A stretch of DNA of 64,000 bases from Acidobacteriota bacterium. Lineage in GTDB: Bacteria; Acidobacteriota; Terriglobia; Terriglobales; Acidobacteriaceae. The notes under the pieces are model-generated. The model worked only from the letters and a program-made list of their open reading frames with translations, was not told the origin of the DNA and did not search any database. A program made the position numbers and the translations under genes. Positions within the stretch are counted from its first letter, which is position 1; each line of letters begins with the position of its first letter. Location: positions 1 to 64,000 of the forward strand of contig QIAU01000132.1 in the NCBI GenBank assembly GCA_003225055.1, given 5' to 3'. This document shows, piece after piece, positions 24,108 through 63,233 of this stretch.

Positions 24108-24116
24108 GTAGGCCCC

Positions 24117-26099
24117 ATGGAAGACAACTCCCCCTCCAGGCCGGCTGCCCCGCAGCTGCGCTTCGGTAAGATCGATGACTTAGTGAGCCGAGTAGCCGTC
24201 GGAATTGACGCGGCTCGCAAGTATCTTTTTTCCCACCAGTACGAGCAGGGTTACTGGTCCGGCGAACTAGTCGCCGACACCACCCTGGAATCCGATTACA
24301 TCCTGCTGCACACGCTTCTGGGTACTGGAAATAAGGAGCGTTTTCACAAATGTGCCAACTACATTCTCCGGCACCAGAACGAGGATGGCGGCTGGCCCAT
24401 CTACATCAAGGGTCCTTCCAACATCAGCGCGTCGGTGAAAGCCTATTTCGGACTAAAGCTTGCCGGATATAAAGCCGACCATCCGGCGCTGGTGCGTGCG
24501 CGCAAGAAGATTCTGGAAATGGGCGGCGCGACCGAGGTCAACACCTTCACTAAGATTTATCTCTGTTTCTTGGGCCAGTATGACTACGACGCCGTTCCGG
24601 CGGTCCCACCCGAGATCGTTCTTTTTCCCAATTGGTTCTGGTTCAACATCTACGAGATTTCTTCCTGGTCGCGGGCCATCCTGGTGCCGCTGTCGATTTG
24701 CTATGCCAAGAAACCGCTGAAGAAGATTCCCGACGAAATGGGCGTGGCAGAGCTGTTCGTAGGGGGACGCGATAAGTCGCGCATGCACCTGCGCTGGAGC
24801 AATCAGCTCCTCTCCTGGCGCAACTTCTTCCTCGTGCTCGATCGGATGGTTCATTGGTTCGAGCGCGTGCATATTCGTCCGCTGCGCTGGCTCGCGCTCC
24901 TGCGCGCCGAGAGGTGGATGCTGGAGCGCTTCGAAATGAGTGATGGACTGGGTGCGATCTACCCGTCCATGATGAACGCCATCATCGCACTGCGCTGCCT
25001 AGGTTACTCGCTCGATGATCCGCAAGTGATCCGCGCCATGGACGAATTTGAAAAGCTCGGCATCGAGGAAGGCGACACTTTCCGCATGCAGCCCTGTATG
25101 TCGCCGGTGTGGGACACTGCCTACGCGCTGTTTGCCTTGGCCGAAGCCGGCGTCCCCGCCAATGACAAACGGATGATCAAGTGCGCCGACTGGCTCTTGC
25201 AGAAACAGGTACGCAATGCCGGCGACTGGAAAGTAAAAAACACCCGGGGCCAGCCTGGCGGCTGGTATTTCGAATTCAACAACGAGTTTTATCCCGACGT
25301 AGACGACAGCGCCATGGTGTGCCTGGCCCTGAGCCGCGTGGAACATCCTAACGGACGCTACCAGCGCGAATCGGTGCAGCGCGCAATCGACTGGATCTTC
25401 TCCATGCAGTGCAAGAACGGCGGCTGGGCCTCGTTCGACAAAGACAATGACCGCATGGTGTTCCAGCACATTCCCTTCGCCGATCACAACGCCATGCTCG
25501 ACCCGCCCACCGTAGACATCACCGGCCGCATTCTGGAGATGCTTGCCACCTATGGCTATGACAAAAATGACAAGCGCGTGAAGCGCGCCATCAACTTCAT
25601 TCGAAAAGAGCAGGAACCCGATGGCTCCTGGTTCGGCCGCTGGGGTGTGAACTACATCTACGGAACGATGCTGGTGCTGCGCGGTTTGGAAGCCATGGGC
25701 GTGGACCATCACGAGCCCTATGTCCAACAGGGCGCGGAATGGTTGCGCATGGTGCAGAACCCCGATGGGGGTTGGGGTGAGACCGCGGACTCCTACCACC
25801 ATCCCAGCCAGCGTGGCGTCGGTCCCAGCACTCCGTCCCAGACGGCCTGGGCGATCATGGGTCTGCTCGCTGCCAACGACACGCGCAGCGACTCGGTCGC
25901 GCGCGGCATTGCTTATCTGCTGCGCACGCAAAAGAAAGACGGCTCATGGGACGAGCCGGCCACCACCGGCACCGGCTTCCCGCGTGTCTTCTACCTGGTC
26001 TATACGCTCTACCGCGAGTACTTCCCGCTGATCGCGCTGACCAATTACGCGAAGGTCATGGCCGGCGGCGAGACAAGCACTCTGAATCGCAGCGCGTAA
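24117..26099 (+). CDS. shc: Squalene-hopene cyclase
   Basis: This membrane-associated cyclase converts squalene to hopene/hopanol. The catalytic DXDD is DVDD at residues 394-397 (YPDVDDSAMVCLALS). QW repeats are present, for example QNEDGGWPIYIKGPS, QCKNGGWASFDKDNDRM, QEPDGSWFGRWGVNYIYG and QNPDGGWGETADSY. At 660 residues it is full length. It is followed by a repeat-rich 150-base gap and hpnA. Confidence 0.97.
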   Translation: MEDNSPSRPAAPQLRFGKIDDLVSRVAVGIDAARKYLFSHQYEQGYWSGELVADTTLESDYILLHTLLGTGNKERFHKCANYILRHQNEDGGWPIYIKGPSNISASVKAYFGLKLAGYKADHPALVRARKKILEMGGATEVNTFTKIYLCFLGQYDYDAVPAVPPEIVLFPNWFWFNIYEISSWSRAILVPLSICYAKKPLKKIPDEMGVAELFVGGRDKSRMHLRWSNQLLSWRNFFLVLDRMVHWFERVHIRPLRWLALLRAERWMLERFEMSDGLGAIYPSMMNAIIALRCLGYSLDDPQVIRAMDEFEKLGIEEGDTFRMQPCMSPVWDTAYALFALAEAGVPANDKRMIKCADWLLQKQVRNAGDWKVKNTRGQPGGWYFEFNNEFYPDVDDSAMVCLALSRVEHPNGRYQRESVQRAIDWIFSMQCKNGGWASFDKDNDRMVFQHIPFADHNAMLDPPTVDITGRILEMLATYGYDKNDKRVKRAINFIRKEQEPDGSWFGRWGVNYIYGTMLVLRGLEAMGVDHHEPYVQQGAEWLRMVQNPDGGWGETADSYHHPSQRGVGPSTPSQTAWAIMGLLAANDTRSDSVARGIAYLLRTQKKDGSWDEPATTGTGFPRVFYLVYTLYREYFPLIALTNYAKVMAGGETSTLNRSA

Positions 26100-26104
26100 C
26101 CAAG

Positions 26105-26248
26105 TTCTCCTTTGCCAGTTCGCGGTTCTCGGACCTGAATCGGGTTAAGCTGAGAGCCGGGAACTGGGAACTACCGTCAAGTTCTCAGTTCCCGGTTCTC
26201 AATCTGCTTGGCGGTTGAACTGAGAACTGGGGACTGAGAAGCGAAAAC
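26105..26248. repeat. Intergenic cluster of AACTGGGAACT-type repeats
   Basis: Between shc and hpnA at least six short units of GTTCTC/AACTGGGAACT/GTTCCCGGTTCTC type occur in both orientations. They can pair with each other as hairpins. They are similar to the elements upstream of recN. No gene is seen. Confidence 0.5.
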
Positions 26249-26252
26249 TAAG

Positions 26253-27239
26253 TTGAAGGCTTTTGTCACAGGGGCGACGGGATTCGTCGGCAGCCACGTG
26301 GCTCGGGTGTTGGCCGATCAGGGTGCCGACCTGCGCCTTCTGGTTCGTTCCACCAGCAATCCCAAGAACATAGAAGGTGTTCGGGCGGACCGTGTCGTTG
26401 GTGACTTGCGCGATGCCGCCTCCTTGGAAAAAGCTATCTCAGGATGCGACACGGTCTTCCACGTGGCCGCGGACTATCGTCTTTGGATACACGATCCGGA
26501 CCAGATGTACCGATCGAATGTGGAAGGCACGCTAGCAGTTCTCGAAGCAGCGCGCAAGGACGGCGTTCGTCGCGTGGTCTACACCTCAAGCGTGGCCACC
26601 GTGGGCTTCACTGGAACCGGCCCGCCCGCTGACGAGAACTCGCCCGTGTCGCTCGACCACATGATCGGCCACTACAAGCGTTCTAAATTCATGGCCGAAC
26701 AGGTCGCGATTGAGGCTGGCAAGAGCGGCATGGACGTCGTGATTGTGAATCCCACGACCCCAGTTGGAGAAAGGGACATCAAACCGACTCCTACGGGTCG
26801 CATCATTGTTGATTTTCTGAAGCGAAGGTTTCCGGCTTACGTGGATACCGGACTTAACTTGGTCGACGTCACCGAATGCGCTCATGGGCACGTAGCCGCC
26901 TTGGAAAAGGGCCGGAGCGGCGAACGTTACATCCTGGGAGGCGAGAATCTGACATTGAAACAGATTCTCGACAAGCTGGCGGCAATCACGGGACTGCCGT
27001 CGCCGCATGTCCGGGTGCCCTATATAGTCGCGCTGGCCACGGGAGTTGTCGACGAAGTCGTGACCGGCCGTATTCTCCGCCGCGAACCTCGTGCCACGAT
27101 TGACGCGGTGCGCATGGGGCGGAAGAAAATGTGGGTCTCGTCGGCAAAAGCCGAGCGCGAACTGGGCTGGAAAGTAGTGCTGGTAGAAGGGGCTCTCCGT
27201 CGAGCCGTGGACTGGTTCCGCGCCCACGGTTACGCCTGA
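26253..27239 (+). CDS. hpnA: Hopanoid-associated sugar epimerase HpnA
   Basis: This NAD-dependent extended short-chain dehydrogenase has a TTG start (MKAFVTGATGFVGSHVA), with the Rossmann glycines at residues 7-13. FHVAADYRLWIHDPDQMYRS and VYTSSVATVGF match the HpnA subfamily, and the active-site YxxxK is in GHYKRSKFMAEQ. Length is 328 residues. HpnA is widespread in hopanoid clusters, but its reaction is not firmly known. Confidence 0.9.
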   Translation: MKAFVTGATGFVGSHVARVLADQGADLRLLVRSTSNPKNIEGVRADRVVGDLRDAASLEKAISGCDTVFHVAADYRLWIHDPDQMYRSNVEGTLAVLEAARKDGVRRVVYTSSVATVGFTGTGPPADENSPVSLDHMIGHYKRSKFMAEQVAIEAGKSGMDVVIVNPTTPVGERDIKPTPTGRIIVDFLKRRFPAYVDTGLNLVDVTECAHGHVAALEKGRSGERYILGGENLTLKQILDKLAAITGLPSPHVRVPYIVALATGVVDEVVTGRILRREPRATIDAVRMGRKKMWVSSAKAERELGWKVVLVEGALRRAVDWFRAHGYA

Positions 27240-27315
27240 CAGAATATGGAGGGACGGGCGTCCTCGCCGTCCGGCCGAGGCAGGCTCGGCAGGTTTTCGA
27301 CGCAACCACACAATC

Positions 27316-28044
27316 ATGTCTAACCAAATTGCCATCGTCGCCGCCCTAGAGTACGAAGTGAAAGCGGGTGTCAAGAACTGGCGCGTGAACGAGCGCGAAC
27401 ACGCCGGCCGGGTTTTCAAGTTTTATGAAAGCGAACGCGCGGTGCTGGTCTGCGGCGGAATTGGAGCGGAACCTGCTCGCCGCGCCGCCGAGGCTGTCAT
27501 TTCTTTGTACAAACCGATGCTGGTGGTTTCAATTGGTTTAGCCGGCGGCCTGGATCCGGAATTGAAGGTCGGCAATCTGTTCACTCCTCGTACGGTCATC
27601 GATGCTGGCGATGGCAGCAGCGTGGGTACGGGGGTCGGGAACGGTGTGCTGGTGAGCTTTGCCGAAGTGGCCAGCGCGGACCAGAAGAGCAACTTGGCGA
27701 AGGCCTTTAACGCGCAGGCAGTCGACATGGAAGCAGCCGCCGTGGCGCGGGGGGCCAAGGCACGCGGCGTTCGCTTCGGAGCCGTAAAAGCCATTTCAGA
27801 TGAGAGAGACTTCGTGATGCCTCCGCTCGAGCGCTTTATCCAAGACGGTCAACTACAATATGGAAAGTTCGCATTGTTCGCCGCTGCCCAGCCCTGGCTC
27901 TGGCCAACGGTAATACTCCTAGCTTTGAACACTTGGCGTGCCTCCAAGACCCTCTGCGCATGGCTGGATCAGTACAATAGCCAACCTGAGTCTCTGGAGA
28001 GAAAGCCTGCTGAGATGCATCCTATAAGCAAGGACAAAATCTGA
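27316..28044 (+). CDS. hpnG: Hopanoid nucleosidase/phosphorylase HpnG
   Basis: This is a purine nucleoside phosphorylase-fold enzyme. In bacteriohopanepolyol synthesis HpnG removes adenine from adenosylhopane to give (phospho)ribosylhopane. The motifs VCGGIGAEPARRAAEAV, SIGLAGGLDPELKVGNLF and the ribose/base-binding VDMEAAAVARGA plus AISDERDF are visible. Length is 242 residues. The gene is three bases from the next dehydrogenase. HpnH, which makes adenosylhopane, is not in this window. Confidence 0.85.
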   Translation: MSNQIAIVAALEYEVKAGVKNWRVNEREHAGRVFKFYESERAVLVCGGIGAEPARRAAEAVISLYKPMLVVSIGLAGGLDPELKVGNLFTPRTVIDAGDGSSVGTGVGNGVLVSFAEVASADQKSNLAKAFNAQAVDMEAAAVARGAKARGVRFGAVKAISDERDFVMPPLERFIQDGQLQYGKFALFAAAQPWLWPTVILLALNTWRASKTLCAWLDQYNSQPESLERKPAEMHPISKDKI

Positions 28045-28047
28045 GAC

Positions 28048-29169
28048 ATGGCAGTCGCAGGGCAGGCGGTAATCCGGAAGCGGGATAACCCTATCCCGAC
28101 CACCATGCTGGCCGCCGTGTACCGCGGCGTAAACGACGTGCGCATGGAAACTGTGCCCGTGCCTGAAATCGGCCCGGGCGAACTCCTCGTGCGCGTGCAT
28201 ACCTGTGGGATCTGCGGCACGGATTTAAAAAAGATCGCCACCGGCTCCCATTCGGCGCCTCGCATCTTCGGCCATGAGACCTCCGGTTTGGTAGCTCGAG
28301 TGGGCAAGGGCGTCAAGAATTTCCAGCCCGGCGACCGGGTGATGGTCTTCCATCACATCCCGTGCGGTGAGTGCTACTACTGCCGCCACAAGGCGTTTGC
28401 TCAATGTCCAACTTATAGAAAGGTCGGTTGTACCGCAGGCTTCGAGCCGTCCGGCGGGGGGTTTGCCCAGTACGTGCGCGTGATGGATTGGATTGCCGAG
28501 CGCGGCGCGATTCCGGTTCCGGACGATGTTTCTTTCGAGCAAGCCTGCTTTGTCGAGCCGGTCAATACCTGCATGAAGGGGATTGATTCGCTCCATCTGG
28601 AGAAGGGCGAGACCGTCTTGGTAATCGGCCAAGGCCCCATTGGCATCATCCTGGGCGTACTGGCCCAACGGACGGGCGCTAGCGTTATCACTTCCGACTT
28701 GCGTCCGGAAAGGCTTAAAATAAGTCAAACCTTTGGCTTAGGCCTGACAATTGATGCATCGTGTGCCGACACGGTGAGGTCGATACGCGAGCGAACCGAG
28801 GGTCGGGGTGCGGATGCCACCCTCCTTGCTGTGGGTGGCAACAACCTGATCCGAACCGCTATGGATGCGACGCGTCCTGGAGGCCGGGTTTTGTTGTTTG
28901 CGCAAACCGTGCACGGGGAAGCTACGATTGATCCGGCCGCCGTTTGCGTGGACGAGAAGACGCTTTTGGGTTCCTATAGTGCGTCTGTCGATTTGCAAGA
29001 GGAGTCAGCGCGTTTTGTGATGAGCCACGACATGGATTGGGCCCGCCTGATCTCCCATCGTTTTCCGCTGGCCGAGAGCGTAGAGGCTCTGAACTTAGCC
29101 GCCCAGCCTCAAGCCGACTCGTTAAAAGTCGTGATCCAGCCGGGCAGCACGTGGGAAGGAACCTTGTGA
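28048..29169 (+). CDS. Zinc-dependent alcohol dehydrogenase (MDR family), first of pair
   Basis: This is a medium-chain dehydrogenase with catalytic zinc ligands in CGICGTDL and FGHETSG. The four-cysteine structural zinc lobe is CGECYYCRHKAFAQC. The NAD-binding turn is VLVIGQGPIGIILGVLAQ. The start may be the ATG at 28105 (MLAAVYRGVNDVRMETVP); the longer form adds 19 residues. It sits between hpnG and hpnC and its stop overlaps the next dehydrogenase gene. Its substrate is unknown. A role in finishing the hopanoid side chain is an inference from position. Confidence 0.82.
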   Translation: MAVAGQAVIRKRDNPIPTTMLAAVYRGVNDVRMETVPVPEIGPGELLVRVHTCGICGTDLKKIATGSHSAPRIFGHETSGLVARVGKGVKNFQPGDRVMVFHHIPCGECYYCRHKAFAQCPTYRKVGCTAGFEPSGGGFAQYVRVMDWIAERGAIPVPDDVSFEQACFVEPVNTCMKGIDSLHLEKGETVLVIGQGPIGIILGVLAQRTGASVITSDLRPERLKISQTFGLGLTIDASCADTVRSIRERTEGRGADATLLAVGGNNLIRTAMDATRPGGRVLLFAQTVHGEATIDPAAVCVDEKTLLGSYSASVDLQEESARFVMSHDMDWARLISHRFPLAESVEALNLAAQPQADSLKVVIQPGSTWEGTL

Positions 29170-30215
29170 CGGGCAAGATGACCGCTGCCGTCCTCTACGG
29201 CAAAGAGGACATGAAGATCGAGAAGGTGCCGATTCCTCGACTCGAAGAAGGCGAACTGCTGATCAAAGTCCAGGTGGCTCTCACCTGCGGCACTGACGTA
29301 AAAGTCTATCGCCGTGGCTATCACGCGCGCATGATCGTGCCGCCCGCTCTTTTCGGACACGAACTGGCGGGAACAATCGACGAAGTCGGGCCGGGAGTTC
29401 GCAAGTTCAAGAAAGGGGAGCGAGTTGTCGCCCTCAATTCGGCCCCCTGCGGTGTCTGTTTCTTCTGCAAGAAACATCAGGAAAATCTCTGCGAAGACCT
29501 GCTCTTCAACAACGGTGCCTACGCTGAATATATTCGCGTTCCGCGACGCATTGTTGAAACCAACCTGCTGACCATCCCCGATTACGTGAACTACCAGGAT
29601 GCGGCGATGGTGGAGCCGCTGGCCTGCGTGCTGCGCGGGTTGCACGAGACCGGGGTGGAAATCGGCGACACCGTGGCGGTGATCGGCGGCGGTCCGATTG
29701 GCCTGATGTTTGTCCAGGTGGCGCATGCCATCGGTTGTAACGTGATTGCGGTTGTGAAGCACGATTCCCAAGTCGCAGCCGCCAAGCGCAAAGGAGCCCA
29801 TGACGTAATTCAAATCGGCCACGTCAGTGATCCTGTGGAAGCGGTGCGGACAATTTCTTCAGCCAAGCGAGGCCCGGATGTTGTCATCGAGGCAGTCGGT
29901 CGTCCCGAGGCCTGGGAAGGGGCCGTCAACATGGTGCGCAAGGGCGGTACGGTGAATTTCTTCGGCGGATGCGCGGCCGGGACGAAAGTGCAGATTGATA
30001 CCAACCGGCTGCACTATTCCGAGATTACGCTGAAGGCGACCTTCCACCACACCCCCGAGACCGTGCGCCGCGCCTTCGCCCTGATTGCGGAGAAAAAGGT
30101 GAAAGGCTCGGACTACATCACCGGAGAAGCCCCTTTGTCTCGCTTGCATGACGTGCTGCGTCTCATGCTCAATCGCAATGGCGACATTAAGACCGCGATC
30201 ATTCCTGGACACTGA
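29166..30215 (+). CDS. Zinc-dependent alcohol dehydrogenase (MDR family), second of pair
   Basis: I choose the GTG at 29166. It overlaps the previous stop codon (GTGA) and follows a GGAAGGA site at five bases; the ATG at 29178 is the alternative. The 349-residue product has the zinc motifs LTCGTDVKVY and FGHELAGTIDEVG. The structural lobe is CGVCFFCKKHQENLC. The Rossmann motif is AVIGGGPIGLMFVQ. It differs clearly in sequence from its neighbour, so the pair is not a recent duplication. Substrate unknown. Confidence 0.85.
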   Translation: MTGKMTAAVLYGKEDMKIEKVPIPRLEEGELLIKVQVALTCGTDVKVYRRGYHARMIVPPALFGHELAGTIDEVGPGVRKFKKGERVVALNSAPCGVCFFCKKHQENLCEDLLFNNGAYAEYIRVPRRIVETNLLTIPDYVNYQDAAMVEPLACVLRGLHETGVEIGDTVAVIGGGPIGLMFVQVAHAIGCNVIAVVKHDSQVAAAKRKGAHDVIQIGHVSDPVEAVRTISSAKRGPDVVIEAVGRPEAWEGAVNMVRKGGTVNFFGGCAAGTKVQIDTNRLHYSEITLKATFHHTPETVRRAFALIAEKKVKGSDYITGEAPLSRLHDVLRLMLNRNGDIKTAIIPGH

Positions 30216-30238
30216 CACACGAACCAGACACGCACGCC

Positions 30239-31180
30239 ATGATGCCACCCGTCGTTACGAATGCGGCCGAACGTTCTGCCCTGCCCGGCTGGGACAGCCT
30301 TCCTGCCGAATACCTAATTCCCGAAGTCGCACCCACGGAAGACGAAGCCCGCCAGTACTGCCGACAGCTGGCCCGCAGGCATTACGAGAACTTCTCGGTG
30401 GCCACGTGGTTCTTGCCGAAACGCCTGCAACAGCATTTTTTCAACCTGTATGCCTATTGCCGAATCGCGGACGACTTGGGGGATGAAGTTGGCGATCCCG
30501 CGGCTTCCTTGAAGCTGCTTGACCAGTGGCAAGCTGAGTTGGATGCCTGCTATCGCGGCCAGCCCAAACATCCGGTGTTGGTTGCCCTGGCTGCCACGGT
30601 TCGAGCTTTTGACATCCCTAAGCATGAATTCTCGGACCTGCTCACCGCATTTCGCCGCGATCAGACCGTTAGGCGGTATGCGACCTTTGACGATGTCGTG
30701 GGTTACTGCAAGTATTCGGCCAACCCGGTCGGGCATCTGGTGCTGTATGTTTGCGGCTATCGCGACCAAGAGCGGCAGAAACTCTCCGATTTCACCTGCA
30801 CGGCTCTGCAACTGGCAAATTTTTGGCAGGACGTCAGCCTGGATTACGGGAAAGGACGCATCTATCTGCCCATCGAAGACCTGCGTCGCTTTGGCGTCAG
30901 TGAAGATGACATTGCTACCCGGCGGAACACCGCTCCATTCCTGGAAATGATGCGCTTCGAAGTGGAACGTGCCCGGGAATGGTTCCGGCAAGGTTTGCCG
31001 CTGGTGGGAAAGGTGAATCGGGCTCTCGCCATCGATATCGAATTGTTCAGCCGTGGCGGACAGGAGATTTTGAACGCCATCGAGCGGCAAGGCTATGCCG
31101 TGCTGGGCCAGCGCCCGGCCATTTCCAAGTCCCGCAAACTGGCGCTGGTAGCCCGCGCTGCGCTGGGAAGCCTGATATGA
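30239..31180 (+). CDS. hpnC: Squalene synthase-like protein HpnC (hydroxysqualene synthase)
   Basis: This is a trans-isoprenyl diphosphate synthase-fold protein. In the HpnCDE route HpnC converts presqualene diphosphate to hydroxysqualene. The aspartate motifs are RIADDLGDEVGD and NFWQDVSLDYGKGRIYLP. The N-terminal CRQLARRHYENFSVATWFLP is characteristic of HpnC. Length is 313 residues. The stop overlaps the hpnD start (ATGA). Confidence 0.93.
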   Translation: MMPPVVTNAAERSALPGWDSLPAEYLIPEVAPTEDEARQYCRQLARRHYENFSVATWFLPKRLQQHFFNLYAYCRIADDLGDEVGDPAASLKLLDQWQAELDACYRGQPKHPVLVALAATVRAFDIPKHEFSDLLTAFRRDQTVRRYATFDDVVGYCKYSANPVGHLVLYVCGYRDQERQKLSDFTCTALQLANFWQDVSLDYGKGRIYLPIEDLRRFGVSEDDIATRRNTAPFLEMMRFEVERAREWFRQGLPLVGKVNRALAIDIELFSRGGQEILNAIERQGYAVLGQRPAISKSRKLALVARAALGSLI

Positions 31181-32130
31181 GTGCCAGTGTGCAACAAGCT
31201 CCAGTCCAGCCCGCGGTTCCGGCATCGCAACTGGCAGTTGCTTATTCGGTTTGCCGCACGATTACGCGCCGTTCGGCCAAAAATTTCTACTACGCATTCC
31301 TGGTCCTGCCCAGACGAAAGCGTTCCGCCCTCTGCGCCGTGTACGCTTTTATGCGCCGCTGCGACGATATTGCAGATGAACCCGGTCTCTCGCTCCGCGA
31401 ACGGCGCCTCAAACTGGCGGACTGGCTCGATGCCATGCACCGGGTGGTCACCGGCGAGCAGACCGACGATCCCGTGCTGCTTGCCTTATCCGATGCCCAT
31501 CGCCGTTTCAAGATTCCGGTAGAACTTCTCGACCAGCTTGCCTTCGGCACCGCCATGGATCTGCAGGAAAGCACTACTCCCATAGATGGAACCCGGGGGT
31601 TGGCCGCTAACGAACTGACTGCCCGCTATAAGACGTTCGACGATCTTTACCAGTACTGCTACCGCGTAGCGTCAGTCGTGGGACTGGTATGCATCCGGGT
31701 ATTCGGCTATCGCAAGCCGGAGGCGGAGCCTTTGGCCGAGCGCTGCGGACTGGCTTTCCAGCTTACCAACATCATCCGCGACGTGAAGGAAGACGCGGCC
31801 ATGAAGCGGGTTTATCTGCCAGACGAGGACCTGGCGAAATTCGGGCTGAGCGCGACCGAATTGCGCAACCCGCAGAGCGCTCGTTTTCGGCCGCTCCTGG
31901 CGATGGAGGCTGAGCGGGCCCGGGAGTACTATCGCTCCGCTGACGAGCTGATCCCGCTGATGGATCACGACAGTCAGCCCGCGCTCTGGGTGCTGGTTAC
32001 CATTTACCGGCAGCTTCTGGAAAAGATCGCCGCCAAGCAATACGAAGTTTTTGACGAGAAGATCAGCCTCACTACCCGGGAAAAGCTGAAGGTGCTGTTT
32101 AACGGCTTTCTGAAACGCTTGGCGGGATGA
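31177..32130 (+). CDS. hpnD: Presqualene diphosphate synthase HpnD
   Basis: This enzyme joins two farnesyl diphosphates into presqualene diphosphate. The ATG at 31177 overlaps the hpnC stop; a longer in-frame upstream extension only shadows hpnC. Motifs are SAKNFYYAFLVLPRRKR, RRCDDIADEPG and TNIIRDVKEDAAMKRVYLP. The product is 317 residues. The gene is also coupled by ATGA overlap to hpnE. Confidence 0.94.
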   Translation: MSASVQQAPVQPAVPASQLAVAYSVCRTITRRSAKNFYYAFLVLPRRKRSALCAVYAFMRRCDDIADEPGLSLRERRLKLADWLDAMHRVVTGEQTDDPVLLALSDAHRRFKIPVELLDQLAFGTAMDLQESTTPIDGTRGLAANELTARYKTFDDLYQYCYRVASVVGLVCIRVFGYRKPEAEPLAERCGLAFQLTNIIRDVKEDAAMKRVYLPDEDLAKFGLSATELRNPQSARFRPLLAMEAERAREYYRSADELIPLMDHDSQPALWVLVTIYRQLLEKIAAKQYEVFDEKISLTTREKLKVLFNGFLKRLAG

Positions 32131-33536
32131 ACCGGCCCTCGGCAGAATCACCCACCGTGGCGGTCGTCGGCGGCGGACTGGCCGGACTGGCTGCCGGATG
32201 CGCTCTCTCCGAAGCTGGTTTTCGAGTAACTCTGTTCGAGCGCCGCCCCTTTCTTGGTGGCCGTGCTTCTTCGTATCAACATCCCGGAACCGGCGAAATG
32301 GTCGACAACTGCCAGCATGTACTGTTAGGCTGCTGCACCAATCTCATCGCGTTCTATGAGCGCGCAGGCGTGGCCGACAAGATTCGCTGGTACGATCGAC
32401 TCACCTTTCTCGAGCCGGGGGGAAGAGCTTCGGAGATTGGGGCCTCACTGCTGCCCGCCCCTTTCCACACGGCGCCCTCGTTCTTGGCAGCAGACTGTTT
32501 AGGTATACGAGACAAAGTGGCGATTGCCCACTCGATGCTGGCTCTTATGCCGTCAACCGTCAAAGATACCGGGGAGTCTTTCCTGGATTGGTTGAAGCGT
32601 CATCGTCAAACTGAGCTCGCCATCGAGCGTTTTTGGAAGACCGTGCTGGTGAGCGCCCTGAATGAAGATCTGGATCGCATATCCGTCGCCTACGCCGCGC
32701 AGGTGTTTCGAGAATCCTTCCTCAAGTCACGAGCGGCGGGGCGCGTGGGCGTTCCGACGGTTCCCTTAACTGAGCTCTACCATGCCGCCGGCAGTTACAT
32801 CTGTGCCCGCCAGGGCGACGTACGATTCCGGTCAGCGGTAGACACTTTTAGGGCCGCCGCCTCCGAGCCAAGCCTGTCGATCAACGGACAGGAATTTCGC
32901 TGTGACTATCTCGTTCTGGCAGTGCGGTTCGACCAGTTGAGCCGGCTCTTGTCTAATTTGCCGGAGGCCCAAGCTTTGCGGGAATCGCTGACCCAATTCG
33001 AGCCTTCGCCCATCACTGGAATTCATCTCTGGTTTGATCGTGAGATCAGCGAGCTTGACCATGCCGTATTGCTCGACCGAACTATCCAGTGGATGTTTCA
33101 CAAATCCCGCCTGCTTGATCGGGAGCGACAGCGAGCCGCGTCCGGCAGTTACATCGAACTGGTGGTCAGCTCATCCAAGTCACTGGTAGGACGATCTCGT
33201 ACCCAAATCATCGATCTGGCTCTGAAGGAAACGCGTGAGTTTTTCCCTGGAGCAGTGGCCGCGAATCTCGCCAAAGCCACGGTGATTAAGGAAGTACACG
33301 CCACCTATTCGCCGCGCCCTGGAATTGATCGCTACCGTCTCGGTAATGTGACCGTCTGGCCACGGGTCTTCCTTGCCGGCGATTGGACTCGTACGGGCTG
33401 GCCCGCCACCATGGAAGGCGCTGTCCGCAGTGGTTACCTGGCGGCCCAGGCCCTGGCTCGGGAAGCGGGGCAGCGCGATGCTGTGTACCTGGTTCCCGAC
33501 CTTCCACCATCTGGACTGATGCACCTGTTTCGCTAA
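32127..33536 (+). CDS. hpnE: Hydroxysqualene dehydroxylase HpnE
   Basis: This FAD-dependent amine-oxidase/desaturase-fold enzyme reduces hydroxysqualene to squalene, closing the HpnCDE route. The dinucleotide motif is VAVVGGGLAGLAAGCALSEA. GGRASSYQHPGTGEMVDNCQ and the C-terminal FLAGDWTRTGWPATMEGAV are typical. Length is 469 residues. It is the last gene of the ispH-to-hpnE run. Confidence 0.94.
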   Translation: MNRPSAESPTVAVVGGGLAGLAAGCALSEAGFRVTLFERRPFLGGRASSYQHPGTGEMVDNCQHVLLGCCTNLIAFYERAGVADKIRWYDRLTFLEPGGRASEIGASLLPAPFHTAPSFLAADCLGIRDKVAIAHSMLALMPSTVKDTGESFLDWLKRHRQTELAIERFWKTVLVSALNEDLDRISVAYAAQVFRESFLKSRAAGRVGVPTVPLTELYHAAGSYICARQGDVRFRSAVDTFRAAASEPSLSINGQEFRCDYLVLAVRFDQLSRLLSNLPEAQALRESLTQFEPSPITGIHLWFDREISELDHAVLLDRTIQWMFHKSRLLDRERQRAASGSYIELVVSSSKSLVGRSRTQIIDLALKETREFFPGAVAANLAKATVIKEVHATYSPRPGIDRYRLGNVTVWPRVFLAGDWTRTGWPATMEGAVRSGYLAAQALAREAGQRDAVYLVPDLPPSGLMHLFR

Positions 33537-33540
33537 GAGC

Positions 33541-33789
33541 CCCTTTCCGAGTTTTTCGGATAAGTTTGTCCGGGCCTTGGGCGTTGTTCCGGGAGCGACT
33601 CTAAATGAAGTAATGGTTAGGGGTTACTAAAGGTCAGGGCTGGTTTGGGAATTGGAAAGGTTCATGCAAAAGCCTAAGCTAGAGCTGTAGGCGCCATTTG
33701 GGAGTTGGCTACCCTCCCCCACGTTTCGGCGCTATTGCCTCAGCGACCCTCTGAGGCTGGTACCCAATGTTTCAGCTGCCGATACGCAC
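33541..33789 (+). promoter_or_regulatory. Structured non-coding leader ahead of the TPR-barrel/HEAT/GT2 cassette
   Basis: This gap folds on paper into several hairpins. GCCTA...TAGGC is at about 33671-33691, and GCGCC...GGCGC encloses GGGAG...CTCCC at about 33691-33732. GCCTCAG...CTGAGGC is at about 33737-33757. The density of perfect stems is high for an intergenic region and suggests a leader RNA or attenuator. It does not match a riboswitch consensus that I know. Confidence 0.35.
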
Positions 33790-33804
33790 TTGCTGGAGTG
33801 TCGA

Positions 33805-35067
33805 TTGAGGATTTTGCCCAAAGTTCGACGAGTCGACCGCGCGGGGTACGCCGCGATTGCGGCCCTGCTGTTCTCGACGACACTAGTCGTTGCCCAAGAA
33901 GTCAGCCTCGATTGGCAACAGCAAATGCGGCAGCAGGTCAGGAATCAACAATTGGATGCAGCCCTGGTCACGATCGAGCAACGTCTCAACAGCCATCCCC
34001 AGGACCTCGAAGCTCGTACGTGGCACGGGCGGGTGCTCGCTTGGAGGGGACGGTGGACGGAGGCGGAGACCGAGTACCGCCGGGTGCTCGAACAAGCTCC
34101 GGATGACACCGAGACCATGGGCGGGCTTTCCGACGTGCTCCTCTGGCAGGGAAAACCGGAAGAAGCGCTTCCCCTTCTGGATCGGGCATCGAGCCTGGCG
34201 CCGCACCAGTCGGAAATTCTTCTGCGCCGCGCCCGAGTTCTGCGTGAGCTGGGACGAACCGCCGATGCCAAAAAACAGTTTCGACAAGTCCTCGCCTTCG
34301 AGCCCGCGAACAAAGAAGCCGAGCGCGGTCTGACCGGGTTGGCGGAGCAAACGCATCACGAACTACGCCTCGGCATCGACCTTGACACTTTCAATTACGC
34401 CGACACCGCGCAGGCGCAAGCTCTCACTGTCGGCTCGCGCTGGGGTCGCCGCTGGTCCACGCGCCTCGGCACAACCTTCTACCAGCGATTCGGCGCGAAT
34501 CCCGGCAAGTTTTTCGCCAGCTCTGGGTTTCGTTTTAGCGGTAAAGACTGGCTCAATGCTGGTGGCGCGCTGGCCAACCAGAACGATGTGATTCCGACCA
34601 ACGAAGCCTTCCTCGAGTACGGCCACGGATTCAAGTTCGATAACCCTTGGGTACGAGGGCTGGAAGCTTCCTACCAGCAGCACTGGCTGTGGTATCGCGG
34701 AGCGCATGTCCTCACGCTGAGCCTCAACCAGATCTATTACCTGCCCCAGGACTGGACCTGGACGCTTACCGTAACGGGCGCACGCAACGGGTTCGCGGGT
34801 ACCGGCATCGAATGGGTCCCCTCGGGATCGAGCAGGCTTGGTTTCCCGCTATACCGCCGATTGACCGGTAGTTTTTCCTTTGCCGTGGGTAGCGAAAATT
34901 TCGCTCAAGTCGACCAAATCGGCCGCTTTTCGGCGCGCACTTTCGGCGGGGGACTCGGCTACCGCTTCAACCATCGCCAGGATCTCAGCGGCTATGTGGC
35001 TGCGCAACATCGCACGCAGGGTCGCACTCAGAACAGTTTCGGGTTGAGCTATGGATTTCGTTTCTAG
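33805..35067 (+). CDS. TPR protein with YaiO-type outer-membrane beta-barrel
   Basis: A TTG at 33805 follows GGAG at seven bases; a TTG at 33790 is the alternative. The product has a signal peptide ending ...TTLVVAQ. Four TPR-like units follow (about residues 35-185; for example HPQDLEARTWHGRVLAWRG and VLRELGRTADAKKQFRQVL). The rest is a beta-barrel of the YaiO type (SRWGRRWSTRLGTTFYQR, then FGGGLGYRFNHRQDLSGYV), ending in Phe (LSYGFRF). TPR plus barrel is the layout of polysaccharide exporters such as PgaA and BcsC. It overlaps the HEAT gene by 17 bases. Confidence 0.8.
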   Translation: MRILPKVRRVDRAGYAAIAALLFSTTLVVAQEVSLDWQQQMRQQVRNQQLDAALVTIEQRLNSHPQDLEARTWHGRVLAWRGRWTEAETEYRRVLEQAPDDTETMGGLSDVLLWQGKPEEALPLLDRASSLAPHQSEILLRRARVLRELGRTADAKKQFRQVLAFEPANKEAERGLTGLAEQTHHELRLGIDLDTFNYADTAQAQALTVGSRWGRRWSTRLGTTFYQRFGANPGKFFASSGFRFSGKDWLNAGGALANQNDVIPTNEAFLEYGHGFKFDNPWVRGLEASYQQHWLWYRGAHVLTLSLNQIYYLPQDWTWTLTVTGARNGFAGTGIEWVPSGSSRLGFPLYRRLTGSFSFAVGSENFAQVDQIGRFSARTFGGGLGYRFNHRQDLSGYVAAQHRTQGRTQNSFGLSYGFRF

Positions 35068-36256
35068 GCTGATCTCTCAACTCGGCCCTGTAGCTGGGAT
35101 GGTGCTGAAAGCAATCTTCTTTTCTCTGCTCGGCATATTTCTGCTCGTCGCCTTCATTGTGACTCGCCGCTGGTATCGCGCCCGCTACTTCCGCCGGCTC
35201 AACCAGCGTACTTTTGCCTTGCGGGCGGTCTGGGACGACCTTGTCGCCGGACGCCTGCCGGTGAAGGAATGGCGGTTGAACCCGTTTGATTGTGAGATCG
35301 TCGAAGCCATTCTGCTGGACAACATCGAGACCGCCAATCCCGATCAATTAGCACCCCTGCTGTCGTGTCTGCGCGACAGCGGCTTATTGGATATGCGCAT
35401 TCGGGAGGCCCGGGTTTCCGGCGGCTGGAAGCGGCGCACCGCCCTGGTGGCCCTGGGCCGAACTCGCGCGCCGGAAGCAGTTCCTGCGCTGGCCGAGGCC
35501 CTGGACTCGCCTTCCGAAGAAACTCGCGTTGCCGCGGTGCGCGGACTGGGGCGCACCGGTCTGCCTGGGGCCGCTGTGCCGTTGCTCGATCGTCTGGTCG
35601 GGAATGAAATCGAGGTGCCGGAGCACACTTTGAAGAACGCACTGGCGAATTGCTGCCGCAAGTCACCGAGCGTACTGATCAGTTACTTGAACAAGTCCAC
35701 CAGGCAAACCCGTGAACTGATCGCGCGCGTGCTAGGAGAGGTGGCCAGCGCGGAGCTGGGGGACGAGTTGATGATCCTTGCGGCCGACCCGCTTGCGGAA
35801 GTGCGTGCTTCCGCGGCGCGGGCCCTGGCTGCGGCGCCGCCCTCGATTGCTCTGCCCGCGTTAACCGTCCTGGTCTGCGACGACGAGTGGTTTGTGCGGC
35901 TGCGTGCGGTGGTGGCTTTAGGATTCATGGAGCACCAGGGGCGAGTCAGGCCGCTGATCCGGGCGCTATGCGACAGGAACCGCTACGTGCGGCAGCGGGC
36001 GGCGTGGGCATTGGCCCGGCTCGGACCTCAGCTGGAGGATGTTCTTGAGCAAGTGGTCGACACGCGTGACAGTTACGCCCTACAAGCGTTCGTTTCGGAA
36101 CTGGAGCGATCGGGAGCGATCGAAAAAGTCATCGAGGCACTGGGGGGATCGGAGGAAGACAACTCGGCGGGAAACGTCCTGCTGGACGCTCTCAACGCGG
36201 GGAAGAAGCGCGTGGAGGCGGCCTTGATCTCTGCGGCGGCCGCAGGGAGAGGTTGA
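35051..36256 (+). CDS. Membrane-anchored HEAT-repeat protein
   Basis: One N-terminal membrane helix (about residues 18-40, IFFSLLGIFLLVAFIV) is followed by a basic patch (TRRWYRARYFRRLNQR). At least five HEAT/PBS-type helical repeats then run to the end (TALVALGRTRAPEAVPALAE, RVAAVRGLGRTGLPGAAVPL, VRASAARALAAAP, RLRAVVALGFMEHQGRVRPL, RQRAAWALARLG). The 401-residue protein probably scaffolds a complex on the cytoplasmic face. It overlaps genes on both sides, so it is surely co-translated with the barrel protein and the glycosyltransferase. Confidence 0.8.
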   Translation: MDFVSRLISQLGPVAGMVLKAIFFSLLGIFLLVAFIVTRRWYRARYFRRLNQRTFALRAVWDDLVAGRLPVKEWRLNPFDCEIVEAILLDNIETANPDQLAPLLSCLRDSGLLDMRIREARVSGGWKRRTALVALGRTRAPEAVPALAEALDSPSEETRVAAVRGLGRTGLPGAAVPLLDRLVGNEIEVPEHTLKNALANCCRKSPSVLISYLNKSTRQTRELIARVLGEVASAELGDELMILAADPLAEVRASAARALAAAPPSIALPALTVLVCDDEWFVRLRAVVALGFMEHQGRVRPLIRALCDRNRYVRQRAAWALARLGPQLEDVLEQVVDTRDSYALQAFVSELERSGAIEKVIEALGGSEEDNSAGNVLLDALNAGKKRVEAALISAAAAGRG

Positions 36257-37662
36257 TGCGCCCAATCCTCGACTTGGCGAACCACACGTTCTTCGTTTAC
36301 TACCTTCTTTCCAATGTCATCTACCTGGTGCTGCTCGTCACCGCGCTCGCCAAGAACACCTTGCATCGTTACCGCCTGGCTAGCTTGCGTCTGGAAGGGC
36401 TGAAAAGCTCGCCTTTTACCCCGCCTATCACGCTAGTGGTCCCGGCGCATAACGAGCAAAACTTCATCGTGGACAGCGTCCGCTCTCTGCTGACGCTCGA
36501 CTACCCGGAACTCGAAGTGGTCGTGGTCAACGACGGCTCGCGCGACAACACGCTGGAAGCGCTAAAGCGGGCTTTCGAATTGCGTCCGGCCCGTCTTCTC
36601 TACATTCCCGATCTTCCCAGCGCTCCCGTAAAGGCGATCTACAACAGTTGGAGCGAGCCTCGCCTGCTGGTTCTGGACAAGGACTCGGCGGGAAGTAAGG
36701 CTGACGCTATCAATGCCGGGCTGAATCTGGCTACTAGCCCGTATGTTTGCGTGGTCGATGCAGATTCAATTCTGGAGAAAGAGTCGCTGCTGCGTATTAT
36801 GGCGGGAGTCTTCTCCGACCCGAGCCGTGTGGTGGCCGTGGGCGGAATTGTGCGCGTACTCAATGGTTGCCGGGTGGAGCACGGAGAACTCGAACAGGTG
36901 CGCCTCCCAAAACGTGGCATCGAGGTTCTCCAGGTAATCGAATATCTGCGCGCTTTCCTGATCGGCCGCGAAGCCTGGGCTCACTTCAATGCATTGCCCA
37001 TCATCTCCGGAGCGTTCGGAATCTTTCGCAAGGATCTGCTGAAAAAGGTGGGCGGCTTTCGTGCACGCGCCATTGGGGAAGACCTGGATTTGGTGGTGCG
37101 TTTGCATCGCCACCTGCAAGAGCAGAATCAGCCCTATCACATCACCTTTATTCCCGATCCAACCTGCTGGACGGAAGTGCCGTTTGATTTGAGGTCGCTG
37201 GCGCGGCAACGAGCGCGTTGGCACAAGGGTCTCCTGGACACGCTATGGCCCAACCGCGACATGCTCTTCAACCCGCGCTACGGCCGGGTCGGTTTGCTGA
37301 TTCTGCCCTACATGTGGCTCTTTGAACTGTTCGCACCAGTCGTGGAGTTCACCGGTTACGCGAGCATCATTGCGGCGGCGATCCTTGGCCTGCTGAGCCG
37401 GCAGTTCCTGCTGCTATTCCTCGTCTTTGGATACGCTTTCGCCACGCTCATCTCCATCGGTTCGGTCCTGCTGGAAGAGATGACGTACCGTCGCTACAGC
37501 GACTGGCGGGAAGTCGCCCGCCTCCTCCTCTACGCGATGGTCGAGCATTTCCCATACCGGCAGTTGACCATGATCTGGCGGCTGCAGGGTTTGTGGCAGT
37601 ATCTGCGTGGGGACCTGAAGTGGCGCGAGATGAAGCGCGTCGGAACGGGCGCCGGAGCCTGA
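36256..37662 (+). CDS. Membrane glycosyltransferase family 2 (processive, PgaC-like)
   Basis: The ATG at 36256 shares one base with the preceding stop (TGATG). The N-terminal helix is FFVYYLLSNVIYLVLLVTA. The GT-A domain has PITLVVPAHNEQNFIVDSV, VVVNDGSRDN and CVVDADSILEKESLL. AIGEDLDLVVRLHR and RQRARWHKG, the QxxRW-type product-binding motif of processive synthases, follow. C-terminal helices come after it (IIAAAILGLLSRQFLLLFLV). 468 residues. It most resembles poly-GlcNAc or hyaluronan-type synthases; the polymer is unknown. Confidence 0.85.
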   Translation: MRPILDLANHTFFVYYLLSNVIYLVLLVTALAKNTLHRYRLASLRLEGLKSSPFTPPITLVVPAHNEQNFIVDSVRSLLTLDYPELEVVVVNDGSRDNTLEALKRAFELRPARLLYIPDLPSAPVKAIYNSWSEPRLLVLDKDSAGSKADAINAGLNLATSPYVCVVDADSILEKESLLRIMAGVFSDPSRVVAVGGIVRVLNGCRVEHGELEQVRLPKRGIEVLQVIEYLRAFLIGREAWAHFNALPIISGAFGIFRKDLLKKVGGFRARAIGEDLDLVVRLHRHLQEQNQPYHITFIPDPTCWTEVPFDLRSLARQRARWHKGLLDTLWPNRDMLFNPRYGRVGLLILPYMWLFELFAPVVEFTGYASIIAAAILGLLSRQFLLLFLVFGYAFATLISIGSVLLEEMTYRRYSDWREVARLLLYAMVEHFPYRQLTMIWRLQGLWQYLRGDLKWREMKRVGTGAGA

Positions 37663-37792
37663 CGGTGCGGGTGAGAGAGTGGGTAGTGGTCCGTCATTAG
37701 TCTGGCCGCTCGGGACTAGTTAGCCACTAACCACAGATACCCGGAAAGCCCCCCTGAGTTCACAATCGGAATCGTTCTCTCCGGGTGCAGGG

Positions 37793-38173
37793 TTACCTCG
37801 CGAGCAGGAAAACTCCAGCGGCCACAAACACGGCAGATGTCCAGCGGCGCCGGTCCACTCTCTCTTTGAGAAAAATGCGGGCTGCAAAAACGTTCGCCAC
37901 AAAGGTGAGGGAAGCAGCTGCTGGACCCACCAAGCTCACGTCATTCCATGATAAAGCAAACAGCAGGCTATAGAAGGCGACTGCCATACAACCGAGGCCA
38001 ACGAGAAACGTGCGGGTACGCAATAGGCGTCCCACTAACACCCGCGTTCCCAAGCGCCGCCGTAACTCGCCGACATCCCCGACCTTTTTCATGGCTCCCG
38101 AGAGGAGAACGTCGCCCGATGTGGAAGCCAGCACGACGGCGAGGACGGAGCACCACGTGTAGAGCTCTTTCAC
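37793..38173 (-). CDS. Half-size EamA/SMR-like membrane transporter (second of pair)
   Basis: From a GTG at 38173, preceded by GGGAGGG, the product is 126 residues with four predicted helices (VLAVVLASTSGDVLLSGAMK, FLVGLGCMAVAFYSLLFALS, VSLVGPAAASLTFVANVFAA, WTSAVFVAAGVFLLA). The start overlaps the stop of the partner gene (GTGA). Such half-EamA pairs, like ArnE/ArnF, form heterodimers that flip lipid-linked sugars. It lies downstream of hpnJ on one transcript. Confidence 0.8.
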   Translation of the reverse strand: MKELYTWCSVLAVVLASTSGDVLLSGAMKKVGDVGELRRRLGTRVLVGRLLRTRTFLVGLGCMAVAFYSLLFALSWNDVSLVGPAAASLTFVANVFAARIFLKERVDRRRWTSAVFVAAGVFLLAR

Positions 38174-38619
38174 CCCTGCCCTCCCGTCGAGACGGTCTCG
38201 GGTTCGCACTCCATCTGCGGCCGCGAACCGTGCCCACGATGATGCTTCGTCAGTTCCGGGCCGCCGGCAACAAACCCCACCCCGGTTGTGATCAATACGA
38301 TTCCCAACCAGCGGGCGGTATGGATGTGCTCATGCAACTGGTACTGGGCAGTGAACGCCAGCAAAACGTAGCCAAGCGAAGTCGCCGGCAAGACGTAAGT
38401 CAGGTCAGCCCAGGAGAGCGCAGTCATGTAGCAGGCGAAGAAAGTCAGCAGGAAAAGGATACCAAGCGCGACCGAGGGGTTCAGGATGGCCAGGATGACA
38501 TGCGGAACGTTCCCCAGGGAGATGTTACCCACTTGCTTCATGCCGCGGGAAAGCAGGGAATCGCCCATCGCCGAGAAGACAGTTATGCCGGCCAGGACTA
38601 AGTACTTGCGCAGACTCAC
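38170..38619 (-). CDS. Half-size EamA/SMR-like membrane transporter (first of pair)
   Basis: This 149-residue protein has a GTG start overlapping the hpnJ stop (GTGA). Four helices are seen (LVLAGITVFSAMGDSLLSRG, ILFLLTFFACYMTALSWADL, YVLPATSLGYVLLAFTAQYQ, WLGIVLITTGVGFVAGG), followed by a His/Arg-rich tail. It shares the helix pattern and the GD.LLS.GMK/VG motif with the next gene, so the two are paralogous halves. A heterodimer moving a hopanoid or lipid-linked intermediate is an inference from linkage. Confidence 0.8.
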   Translation of the reverse strand: MSLRKYLVLAGITVFSAMGDSLLSRGMKQVGNISLGNVPHVILAILNPSVALGILFLLTFFACYMTALSWADLTYVLPATSLGYVLLAFTAQYQLHEHIHTARWLGIVLITTGVGFVAGGPELTKHHRGHGSRPQMECEPETVSTGGQG

Positions 38620-40109
38620 ATGGCTCCCGAAGCGTTGACGGGTTCGACCGGTTCGGGAGCCTGGGCTGTGACCTTGGCCTTCTGTTTGACCAACTTGTTG
38701 CGCATGGAGCGCACCTTGAGGAAGGTCTTGGCTTCTTTGTAAAGACGTTTGCGCTCACCGCCGTGAAAAACCGCCTTCTTCAGGATCCGGAACACGGCCT
38801 TGGGACGGAAATAATACTCATCGTAGAAGCGGTGCACTGAAGCCAGGATCTGGTCGGCGGGCAAACCCGGGTACTGAATGTGTGCCAGTTGATGGCCGCC
38901 CTCGTCCACCATCTTGCTGCCGCTCACCATAAAGCCGTTCTTCACGGCGTAGTCATAGAGCTCGGTGCCAGGATAGGCATGTGCCACCGAAACCTGAATG
39001 GTTTCTACATCGAGTTCCTTGGCAAAAGCGATGGTGTTGTTAATGGTCTGGCGAGTTTCACCCGGCAAACCAAGTATGAAATCGCCGTGAATTACCAGCC
39101 CGAGCTTGTGGCAGTCTTTGGTGAACTGGTGAGCGCGCTCGACGGTGGCCCCCTTTTTGATGTTCTTGAGAATCTGCGCATCGCCAGACTCGAAGCCTAC
39201 GATCAGCAACCGGCACCCCCCTTCCTTCATGGCCTTCAGGGTTTCGTAGTCGGTGGTGACGCGCGAAGTGCATGACCAGGTCAGGTTAAGCGGCTTCAAC
39301 TTGGCGCAAAGCTCTAGGGTACGAGCCTTCTGGATATTGAAGGTATCGTCGTCGAAGAAGAATTCTTTGACATTCGGCCAGTATTGTTTGGCCTTGGCCA
39401 TCTCGCTAGCCACATCATCGCTGGAACGTTTGCGCCAGGGATGGCCGCTCAGAGTCTGCGGCCACAAGCAGAAGGTGCACTGAGCCGGACAGCCACGCGT
39501 GGTGTAGAGGGAAACATAGGGGTTCAGCAGGAATGGAACGTTGTAGCGGGTGACGTCAAGGTCCCGCTTGTAAACATCGGTGACATGCGGCAGAGAATCC
39601 AGATCCTGGACTTGCGGAGCGTCGGGATTGTGAACCACCCGTCCGTCCTCGAGATACGAGACACCCAGGATTTCTTCGAGTGACTTGCCATGGGCATAGT
39701 CGACAACCGCGTAATCAAATTCTTTGCGGCAAACGAAATCAATGGCCGAACAGTCGCGTAAGGACTTCTCGGGAAGCACGCTGACGTGTGGCCCGACGAA
39801 GGCAATCTTTATCCCCGGATTGGCCTTCTTGATGGCCTGGGCCAAACGGATATCGCCCGGAAACCCTGGCGTGCTGGTGAACAGTACCAGGAACTCATAC
39901 CGGTTGGCGATGTCGATTGTGTCCTCGGTCGAAACGTAATGAGGCGGAGCGTCCAAGAGCCGCGCTCCCTCTAGCATTCCCGCCGGATAAGCCAGCCACA
40001 CCGGATACCAGTAGGACTCAATCTCGCGGGTAGCCGGCCAACGCGAGCCCGCCCCGCCGTCGAAATTTTCAAAGGACGGAGGATTCAGGAACAGTGTTTT
40101 CAATGGCAT
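38616..40109 (-). CDS. hpnJ: Hopanoid B12-binding radical SAM protein HpnJ
   Basis: This 497-residue protein has an N-terminal cobalamin-binding-like domain (about 60-170, VLFTSTPGFPGDIRLAQ and AFVGPHVSVLP). A radical SAM domain follows with cluster cysteines 207, 211 and 214 (RGCPAQCTFCLWPQTLSG). HPWRKRSSDDVASEM and GFESGDAQILKNIKKG fit the HpnJ family. HpnJ contributes to forming the cyclitol ether head group of composite hopanoids. It lies 2.4 kb from hpnE, on the opposite strand, leading the EamA pair. Confidence 0.88.
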   Translation of the reverse strand: MPLKTLFLNPPSFENFDGGAGSRWPATREIESYWYPVWLAYPAGMLEGARLLDAPPHYVSTEDTIDIANRYEFLVLFTSTPGFPGDIRLAQAIKKANPGIKIAFVGPHVSVLPEKSLRDCSAIDFVCRKEFDYAVVDYAHGKSLEEILGVSYLEDGRVVHNPDAPQVQDLDSLPHVTDVYKRDLDVTRYNVPFLLNPYVSLYTTRGCPAQCTFCLWPQTLSGHPWRKRSSDDVASEMAKAKQYWPNVKEFFFDDDTFNIQKARTLELCAKLKPLNLTWSCTSRVTTDYETLKAMKEGGCRLLIVGFESGDAQILKNIKKGATVERAHQFTKDCHKLGLVIHGDFILGLPGETRQTINNTIAFAKELDVETIQVSVAHAYPGTELYDYAVKNGFMVSGSKMVDEGGHQLAHIQYPGLPADQILASVHRFYDEYYFRPKAVFRILKKAVFHGGERKRLYKEAKTFLKVRSMRNKLVKQKAKVTAQAPEPVEPVNASGAM

Positions 40110-45785: not shown

Positions 45786-45939
45786 TGGCTTTTCGGACGC
45801 CCAATCAGTTTTGCCATCTTGAGCGCAGCCTCCCCTTCGCCGCGCGAAGAAGAGGCGAAGTCGAAGGACCCCGGCCCAGACACTGCCATCGGGATGCAAA
45901 AGCGAATTGGCAAGGGAACGCCTTGCCCGGGCATGGACG

Positions 45940-62807: not shown

Positions 62808-63233
62808 TCAGCTTGCAGATTTCCTCATGGCCTGGAGGATGGTCTCGTCGACGGGGAAGAAGGTCTCGTTGCGCAGGAGGGCTTCGATGCCGGCCACGAC
62901 TTCGCTGCCGCGGTCTTTGGTGACCGCTCCTTTCAGCCCGGCTTCGCGAGCGGCTAGCGCCAGCGCGGGCGATACCTGTTGAACGCTGACCAGCAGCATG
63001 GGCAGCGCGGGAAAGGTTTTGGCGATTTCGCTGGCGGCTTGCAAGCCGGTCATAACCGGCATCGCGCAATCGAGAATCACAAGATCAGGGACGAGCTGGC
63101 GAGCCTTTTCGAGCGCCTCGCTACCGTTCTGAGCTTCGCCGCAGACTTCCCAGAAACCGTGGCCCTCGACGAACCTGCGTAGCAGAAGACGAATGGTCGG
63201 GTCGTCATCCGCGATCAAGATCCGTATCGGCAT
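62808..63233 (-). CDS. Single-domain response regulator (CheY-like receiver)
   Basis: The 141-residue receiver domain has ILIADDDPTIRLLL (acidic pair), the phospho-acceptor Asp in DLVILDCAMPVMTG, Ser at LLVSVQQ and the conserved Lys in GAVTKDRGSE. It has no output domain. The start at 63233 (MPIRILIADDD) is preferred over an ATG-less extension upstream. No histidine kinase is adjacent. Confidence 0.88.
   Translation of the reverse strand: MPIRILIADDDPTIRLLLRRFVEGHGFWEVCGEAQNGSEALEKARQLVPDLVILDCAMPVMTGLQAASEIAKTFPALPMLLVSVQQVSPALALAAREAGLKGAVTKDRGSEVVAGIEALLRNETFFPVDETILQAMRKSAS

Follow-up and report, generated by a model that had tools for sequence, protein, structure and literature searches.

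A gene cassette for a TPR-barrel protein, a HEAT-repeat protein and a GT2 in Acidobacteriota: a putative compact synthase-dependent polysaccharide secretion system

Results

Gene organization of the cassette

Three overlapping genes lie on the plus strand at 33805-37662 of the window (the whole stretch of 64,000 nucleotides that was analysed) and encode, in this order, an outer-membrane protein (OMP) with TPRs and a barrel, a HEAT-repeat protein and a GT2 (Table 1). This is the arrangement of the original prediction, which had placed the OMP start at 33541. That start is 264 bp too early, because the upstream part of its frame contains stop codons, before 33790; position 33541 is only where the intergenic stretch after hpnE begins. 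The OMP start is likely the TTG at 33805, judging by a GGAG six bases upstream. The HEAT ATG at 35051 overlaps the OMP stop by 17 bp, and the GT2 ATG at 36256 lies within a TGATG overlap with the HEAT gene, which suggests that the expression of the three genes is coupled. A promoter and terminator scan at the cassette returned nothing beyond chance.

Table 1 Features of the cassette and signalling genes near related cassettes (type A as defined in the text)
Feature	Position	Strand	Basis
OMP: signal sequence, ~4.5 TPRs, C-terminal β-barrel; putative polysaccharide exporter	33805..35067	+	TPR families, model, Foldseek, gene order
OMP barrel domain, remote YaiO (TIGR04390) relative	34348..35067	+	hhalign E 5.6e-6; relative L033
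HEAT-repeat protein, one N-terminal TM helix, predicted cytosolic solenoid; putative synthase partner	35051..36256	+	HEAT_2, model
Membrane GT2, putative processive polysaccharide synthase; possible alternative start TTG 36253	36256..37662	+	Glyco_tranf_2_3, motifs
Diguanylate cyclase (GGDEF) genes near type A cassettes	L032:8117-8941; L033:3035-3913; L036:1004-1813		

Predicted properties of the three proteins

TPR repeats were found in the OMP by family profile search, and its model (pLDDT 80), built on a 14-sequence alignment, comprises an N-terminal signal helix, ~4.5 TPRs and 14 β-strands, in keeping with the proposed TPR protein ending in a barrel. The top Foldseek matches include the nearest solved TPR-barrels, E. 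coli BcsC (1.2e-10) and PelB (5e-9), with fits spanning TPRs and barrel at high rmsd, and VIA-align relates the barrel to the pores FadL, OmpG and CymA (Z about 19-20). PgaA is not among the structural matches listed, which is evidence neither for nor against kinship. The barrel had been called YaiO-like. The window barrel matches no Pfam or NCBIfam model, including TIGR04390 and PF19413, the YaiO cut-offs not being reached, and the OMP of the relative L033 scores 3.3e-4 with TIGR04390, below the cut-off. An hhalign comparison of the window-type barrel with YaiO-type barrels at relatives' loci gives E 5.6e-6 at a probability of 85.6, so the label is correct for a remote kinship but not for a direct family match. 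A comparison of the window OMP with plasmids returned no match.

The HEAT protein matches HEAT_2 at 3.4e-32, and its model (pLDDT 87) has a long N-terminal helix followed by a solenoid with HEAT and armadillo-like structural matches; the predicted one-helix HEAT-repeat protein, with a single N-terminal TM helix, is thus confirmed. Among the HEAT open reading frames of relatives, 88 of 91 have an N-terminal TM helix, and in 80 of these 88 the positive charge is greater after the helix, from which a membrane-anchored, cytosolic solenoid is predicted. Models of PilZ and PgaD gave no match with the OMP, HEAT or GT2 proteins.

The GT2 matches Glyco_tranf_2_3 (8.3e-24) and carries the motifs DGS, DAD, ED and QRARW. 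This full motif set, the catalytic residues of which (D, DxD, ED, QxxRW) are the same in all 88 relatives compared, agrees with its earlier description as a processive-type GT2 with a QxxRW-like motif, and the protein is regarded here as a putative processive polysaccharide synthase. Its profile reaches cellulose synthase (BcsA) in the PDB over the QxxRW region. Among the curated models PgaC_IcaA fits best, with 130.5 bits (cut-off 422.3); the cut-offs of the CelA (39.6 bits, cut-off 699.1), HpnI (12.4 bits, cut-off 310) and HpnB (39.5 bits, cut-off 379) models are not reached either.

Relatives of the cassette

A survey of GT2 orthologues in 60 related genomes separated two identity tiers. 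Type A GT2s, at 60-66% identity, have the gene order OMP-HEAT-GT2, which recurs in 13 loci besides the window, and they form one clade with the window (SH-aLRT 100), made up of Acidobacteriota. Type B GT2s, at 40-44% identity, are found in HEAT-GT2 pairs followed by a 960-aa protein, which combines TPRs with conserved glycosidase-like motifs, and then by a large TPR OMP; the best 60 PDB matches listed for the 960-aa protein cover the TPR part only. Its gene is seen in L038-L044 (e.g., L040:10682-13603), and profile matches to it lie near HEAT-GT2 in loci labelled Bacillota (L082, L084, L090, L097 and L118). The original prediction had noted the absence of a deacetylase or hydrolase and had missed that this glycosidase-like protein occurs in several relatives outside the window's clade.

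Departures from the three-gene order are HEAT-GT2 lacking an adjacent OMP at L032 and GT2 alone, lacking HEAT, at L035 and L055. Sampling of 179 good genomes from the phylum revealed the GT2 subfamily in 43, and a draft genome of the same genus yielded no close GT2 relative. The three families thus co-occur across genomes, as anticipated, with the same order in the 13 other loci and in Mesorhizobium ciceri. Chance neighbourhood is ruled out by the conserved gene order together with control GT2 loci.

HEAT-GT2 as the constant core

A scan of 84,980 species genomes, from which the best 80 loci were taken, was run with a GT2-only profile that used no HEAT information, though its GT2 rows came mostly from HEAT-bearing loci. 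The best 80 loci come from a wide range of phyla, among them Bacillota, Actinomycetota and Chloroflexota, and include monoderms and archaea. Most relatives are MAGs, whose records may carry some wrong phylum labels; in two cases the complete Haloarcula and Mesorhizobium plasmid records are a safeguard against contamination. In 75 of the 76 best loci with upstream DNA, as in the window, a HEAT gene lies directly upstream of the GT2 gene on the same strand. The scanned DNA holds only 2 other HEAT matches in 1.35 Mb, and HEAT occurs at 0 of 18 control GT2 loci, the flanks of which are only about 1.5 kb. HEAT and GT2 distances correlate with r 0.83 (permuted maximum 0.10), a value inflated by shared descent. 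HEAT-GT2 is the constant core and the exporter is an optional part. The proposed TPR-barrel/HEAT/GT2 cassette is indeed a three-gene unit, but this division into core and option had been missed. The pair is not described in the open-access literature that we searched, and within that literature the claim of an undescribed system holds.

Signalling genes beside the core

Most relatives carry a response regulator (RR) near HEAT-GT2, which the original prediction had missed: in 45 of the 56 loci outside type A a receiver-domain RR is encoded on the same strand <=4 kb upstream, with a background of 33 other matches in 882 kb. Ten further Acidobacteriota loci, picked mainly for long open frames in a hunt for fusions and not at random, have a same-strand RR beside HEAT-GT2 in 10/10 cases, and among them no HEAT is fused to a GT2 or RR. 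The phospho-acceptor Asp is kept in 58 of 63 adjacent RRs and 40 of the 63 are at most 200 aa; many seem to be lone receivers with no output domain, a type that usually acts through protein contact. The RR slot is empty in type A, the window's clade; none was found near the window cassette, and the sole match in the window is at 62970-63236 on the minus strand. A GGDEF gene is found near four type A loci (L032, L033, L036 and L048), which hints at c-di-GMP control within this clade.

Genomic surroundings

The cassette is flanked by hpnE on one side and on the other by a small pair of EamA-like genes, after which comes hpnJ. The surrounding hopanoid cluster (window 23133-40109) comprises ispH, squalene-hopene cyclase, hpnA, an hpnG-like gene, two alcohol dehydrogenases, hpnC, hpnD, hpnE and then hpnJ. 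The EamA-like pair (37796-38619), two short overlapping membrane proteins, is conserved at the hopanoid junction of relatives and gave no NCBIfam match at 1e-10. A second glycosyltransferase, encoded at 45907-47106, is HpnB-like, its 140.7 bits falling short of the HpnB cut-off (379). Six relatives have 0.86-1.02 kb between hpnE and hpnJ, with only the EamA-like pair in this gap, vs about 5.1 kb in the window; one of these six (G015) has the cassette on another contig. Given the cassette-free junction and the different location in G015, the OMP, HEAT and GT2 genes were most likely inserted as one block, and the hopanoid neighbours are most likely incidental.

Discussion

Comparison with known systems

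Synthase-dependent exopolysaccharide systems, five of which were known to a 2020 survey, are defined by an inner-membrane synthase and a periplasmic TPR part coupled to an outer-membrane pore, and typically include a c-di-GMP-binding part (PMC7112194). An inner-membrane synthase and a TPR-coupled pore are what the predicted domains, the OMP model and Foldseek indicate for the cassette. The closest annotated locus, which bears no system name, is MESCI_RS31990-RS32020 on M. ciceri pMESCI01, with a YaiO OMP, HEAT and GT2 in the same order and on one strand. Compared with the window, its OMP has a longer TPR region and a barrel that matches the YaiO model directly, and the three genes are preceded by an ATP-binding protein, which matches a kinase profile, and two RRs, and are followed by an Hpt protein. 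In Emticicia the order is RR-(hypothetical)-GT2-(hypothetical)-YaiO, and among 48 neighbour proteins scanned TIGR04390 matches 17 and PF19413 matches 14. Haloarcula halophila (P0204_RS16140-RS16165, likewise annotated under no system name) has HEAT directly before a GT2 of the same subfamily in the order kinase-RR-HEAT-GT2-kinase; this archaeon, however, has neither an outer membrane nor an OMP gene.

E. coli PgaABCD, which makes PNAG, likewise combines a TPR-barrel OMP with a processive GT2, but it includes the deacetylase PgaB and PgaD, both absent from the cassette, which has the HEAT protein instead; furthermore, the Pga exporter barrel has 16 strands (PMC12141448), whereas the OMP model has 14. 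The Bcs system shares the TPR-barrel exporter fold (BcsC) and the D, DxD, ED and QxxRW residues of the GT2 (BcsA), and differs by a PilZ domain and BcsB, which the cassette lacks. In E. coli yaiO-yaiP-yaiS a YaiO-type barrel is likewise encoded near a GT2 gene, but YaiO has only 257 aa and the locus has a putative deacetylase gene, yaiS. With these three genes together in E. coli, a YaiO-like barrel and PgaC_IcaA as the best GT2 model, the cassette could be taken for a Pga or YaiO-YaiP locus reduced by the loss of its deacetylase. We consider this very improbable: the E. coli GT2s are distant from the subfamily, scoring 114 (PgaC) and 54 bits (YaiP) with its profile and having very long branches, the Pga equivalog cut-offs are far off (PgaA 45.9 vs 366.65 bits; PgaC as given above), and inspection of the E. 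coli yai and pga loci revealed no HEAT gene.

Proposed mechanism and alternatives

The reading that we favour, with a probability of about 0.6, is that the three genes form a compact synthase-dependent polysaccharide secretion system with the HEAT protein as a synthase co-subunit. Family co-occurrence and the processive-type motifs agree with the original prediction as regards synthase-dependent secretion; polymerization, export, HEAT-GT2 contact and the direction of regulation are what we infer. The inner-membrane GT2 would build the chain from a nucleotide sugar at its cytosolic face and translocate it to the periplasm, where the TPRs of the OMP would take it over; release would then be through the predicted 14-strand barrel. 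The TM-anchored HEAT protein, with a cytosolic solenoid next to the active site of the GT2, may position or switch the synthase, the part played in other systems by PilZ domains or PgaD; such a substitution, proposed from the start, fits the constant pairing with the GT2 and the predicted topology, the substitute role itself being putative. Since an RR is encoded beside HEAT in most relatives, phosphorylation would be the probable signal. In the window's clade the regulator would have gone from the operon, either acting in trans or having been replaced.

Against this reading count the two loci where the GT2 has no HEAT partner, the one HEAT-GT2 locus with no adjacent OMP, the failure of the fusion hunt to turn up a HEAT joined to a GT2 or RR, a TPR region that is short for spanning the periplasm, and the 14 strands of the model, since solved exporters of such polysaccharides have 16 or 18 (PMC12141448); this difference is either a model error or genuine. 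The barrel's resemblance to the small-molecule pores FadL, OmpG and CymA, and the few TM helices predicted in the GT2, would suit a non-processive or lipid-linked enzyme that makes a surface glycolipid, with the OMP as a porin or anchor and not a polymer channel. This is unlikely in view of the invariance of QxxRW and the other processive-type residues, PgaC_IcaA as the best curated GT2 model, and the TPR-plus-barrel architecture of the exporters BcsC and PelB. A glycosylated hopanoid as the product, suggested by the position between hpnE and hpnJ, with hpnC and hpnD also nearby, is barely credible and was ruled out by the HpnI and HpnB scores, far under their cut-offs, and by the hopanoid clusters of six relatives, which are intact without the cassette (one of the six has it on another contig); moreover, hpn neighbours are absent at the other 14 type A loci checked.

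A more serious alternative leaves secretion unchanged and makes the HEAT protein a factor that assembles or stabilizes the synthase and not a regulator, the nearby RRs having their targets in transcription or elsewhere. In its favour are the general use of HEAT solenoids as scaffolds and the loci that keep the pair with no RR next to it, namely those of the window's clade and 11 others; the short length of many adjacent RRs, which resemble output-less receivers, argues against it, and we hold this alternative to be possible but on balance doubtful. A wider form of the co-subunit reading, in which HEAT relays a signal from a receiver phosphorelay to a processive GT2 and thereby replaces c-di-GMP, would make the pair an unrecognised class of bacterial and archaeal synthases to which many outer-membrane bacteria add a YaiO-type exporter; this we put forward tentatively, at somewhat less than even odds.

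If these assignments are true, the HEAT-GT2 pair would add a further synthase-dependent exopolysaccharide system, with a different partner protein, and would assign a function to HEAT and YaiO genes that so far have only generic annotations; cultured hosts, such as M. ciceri and haloarchaea, would become direct test cases.
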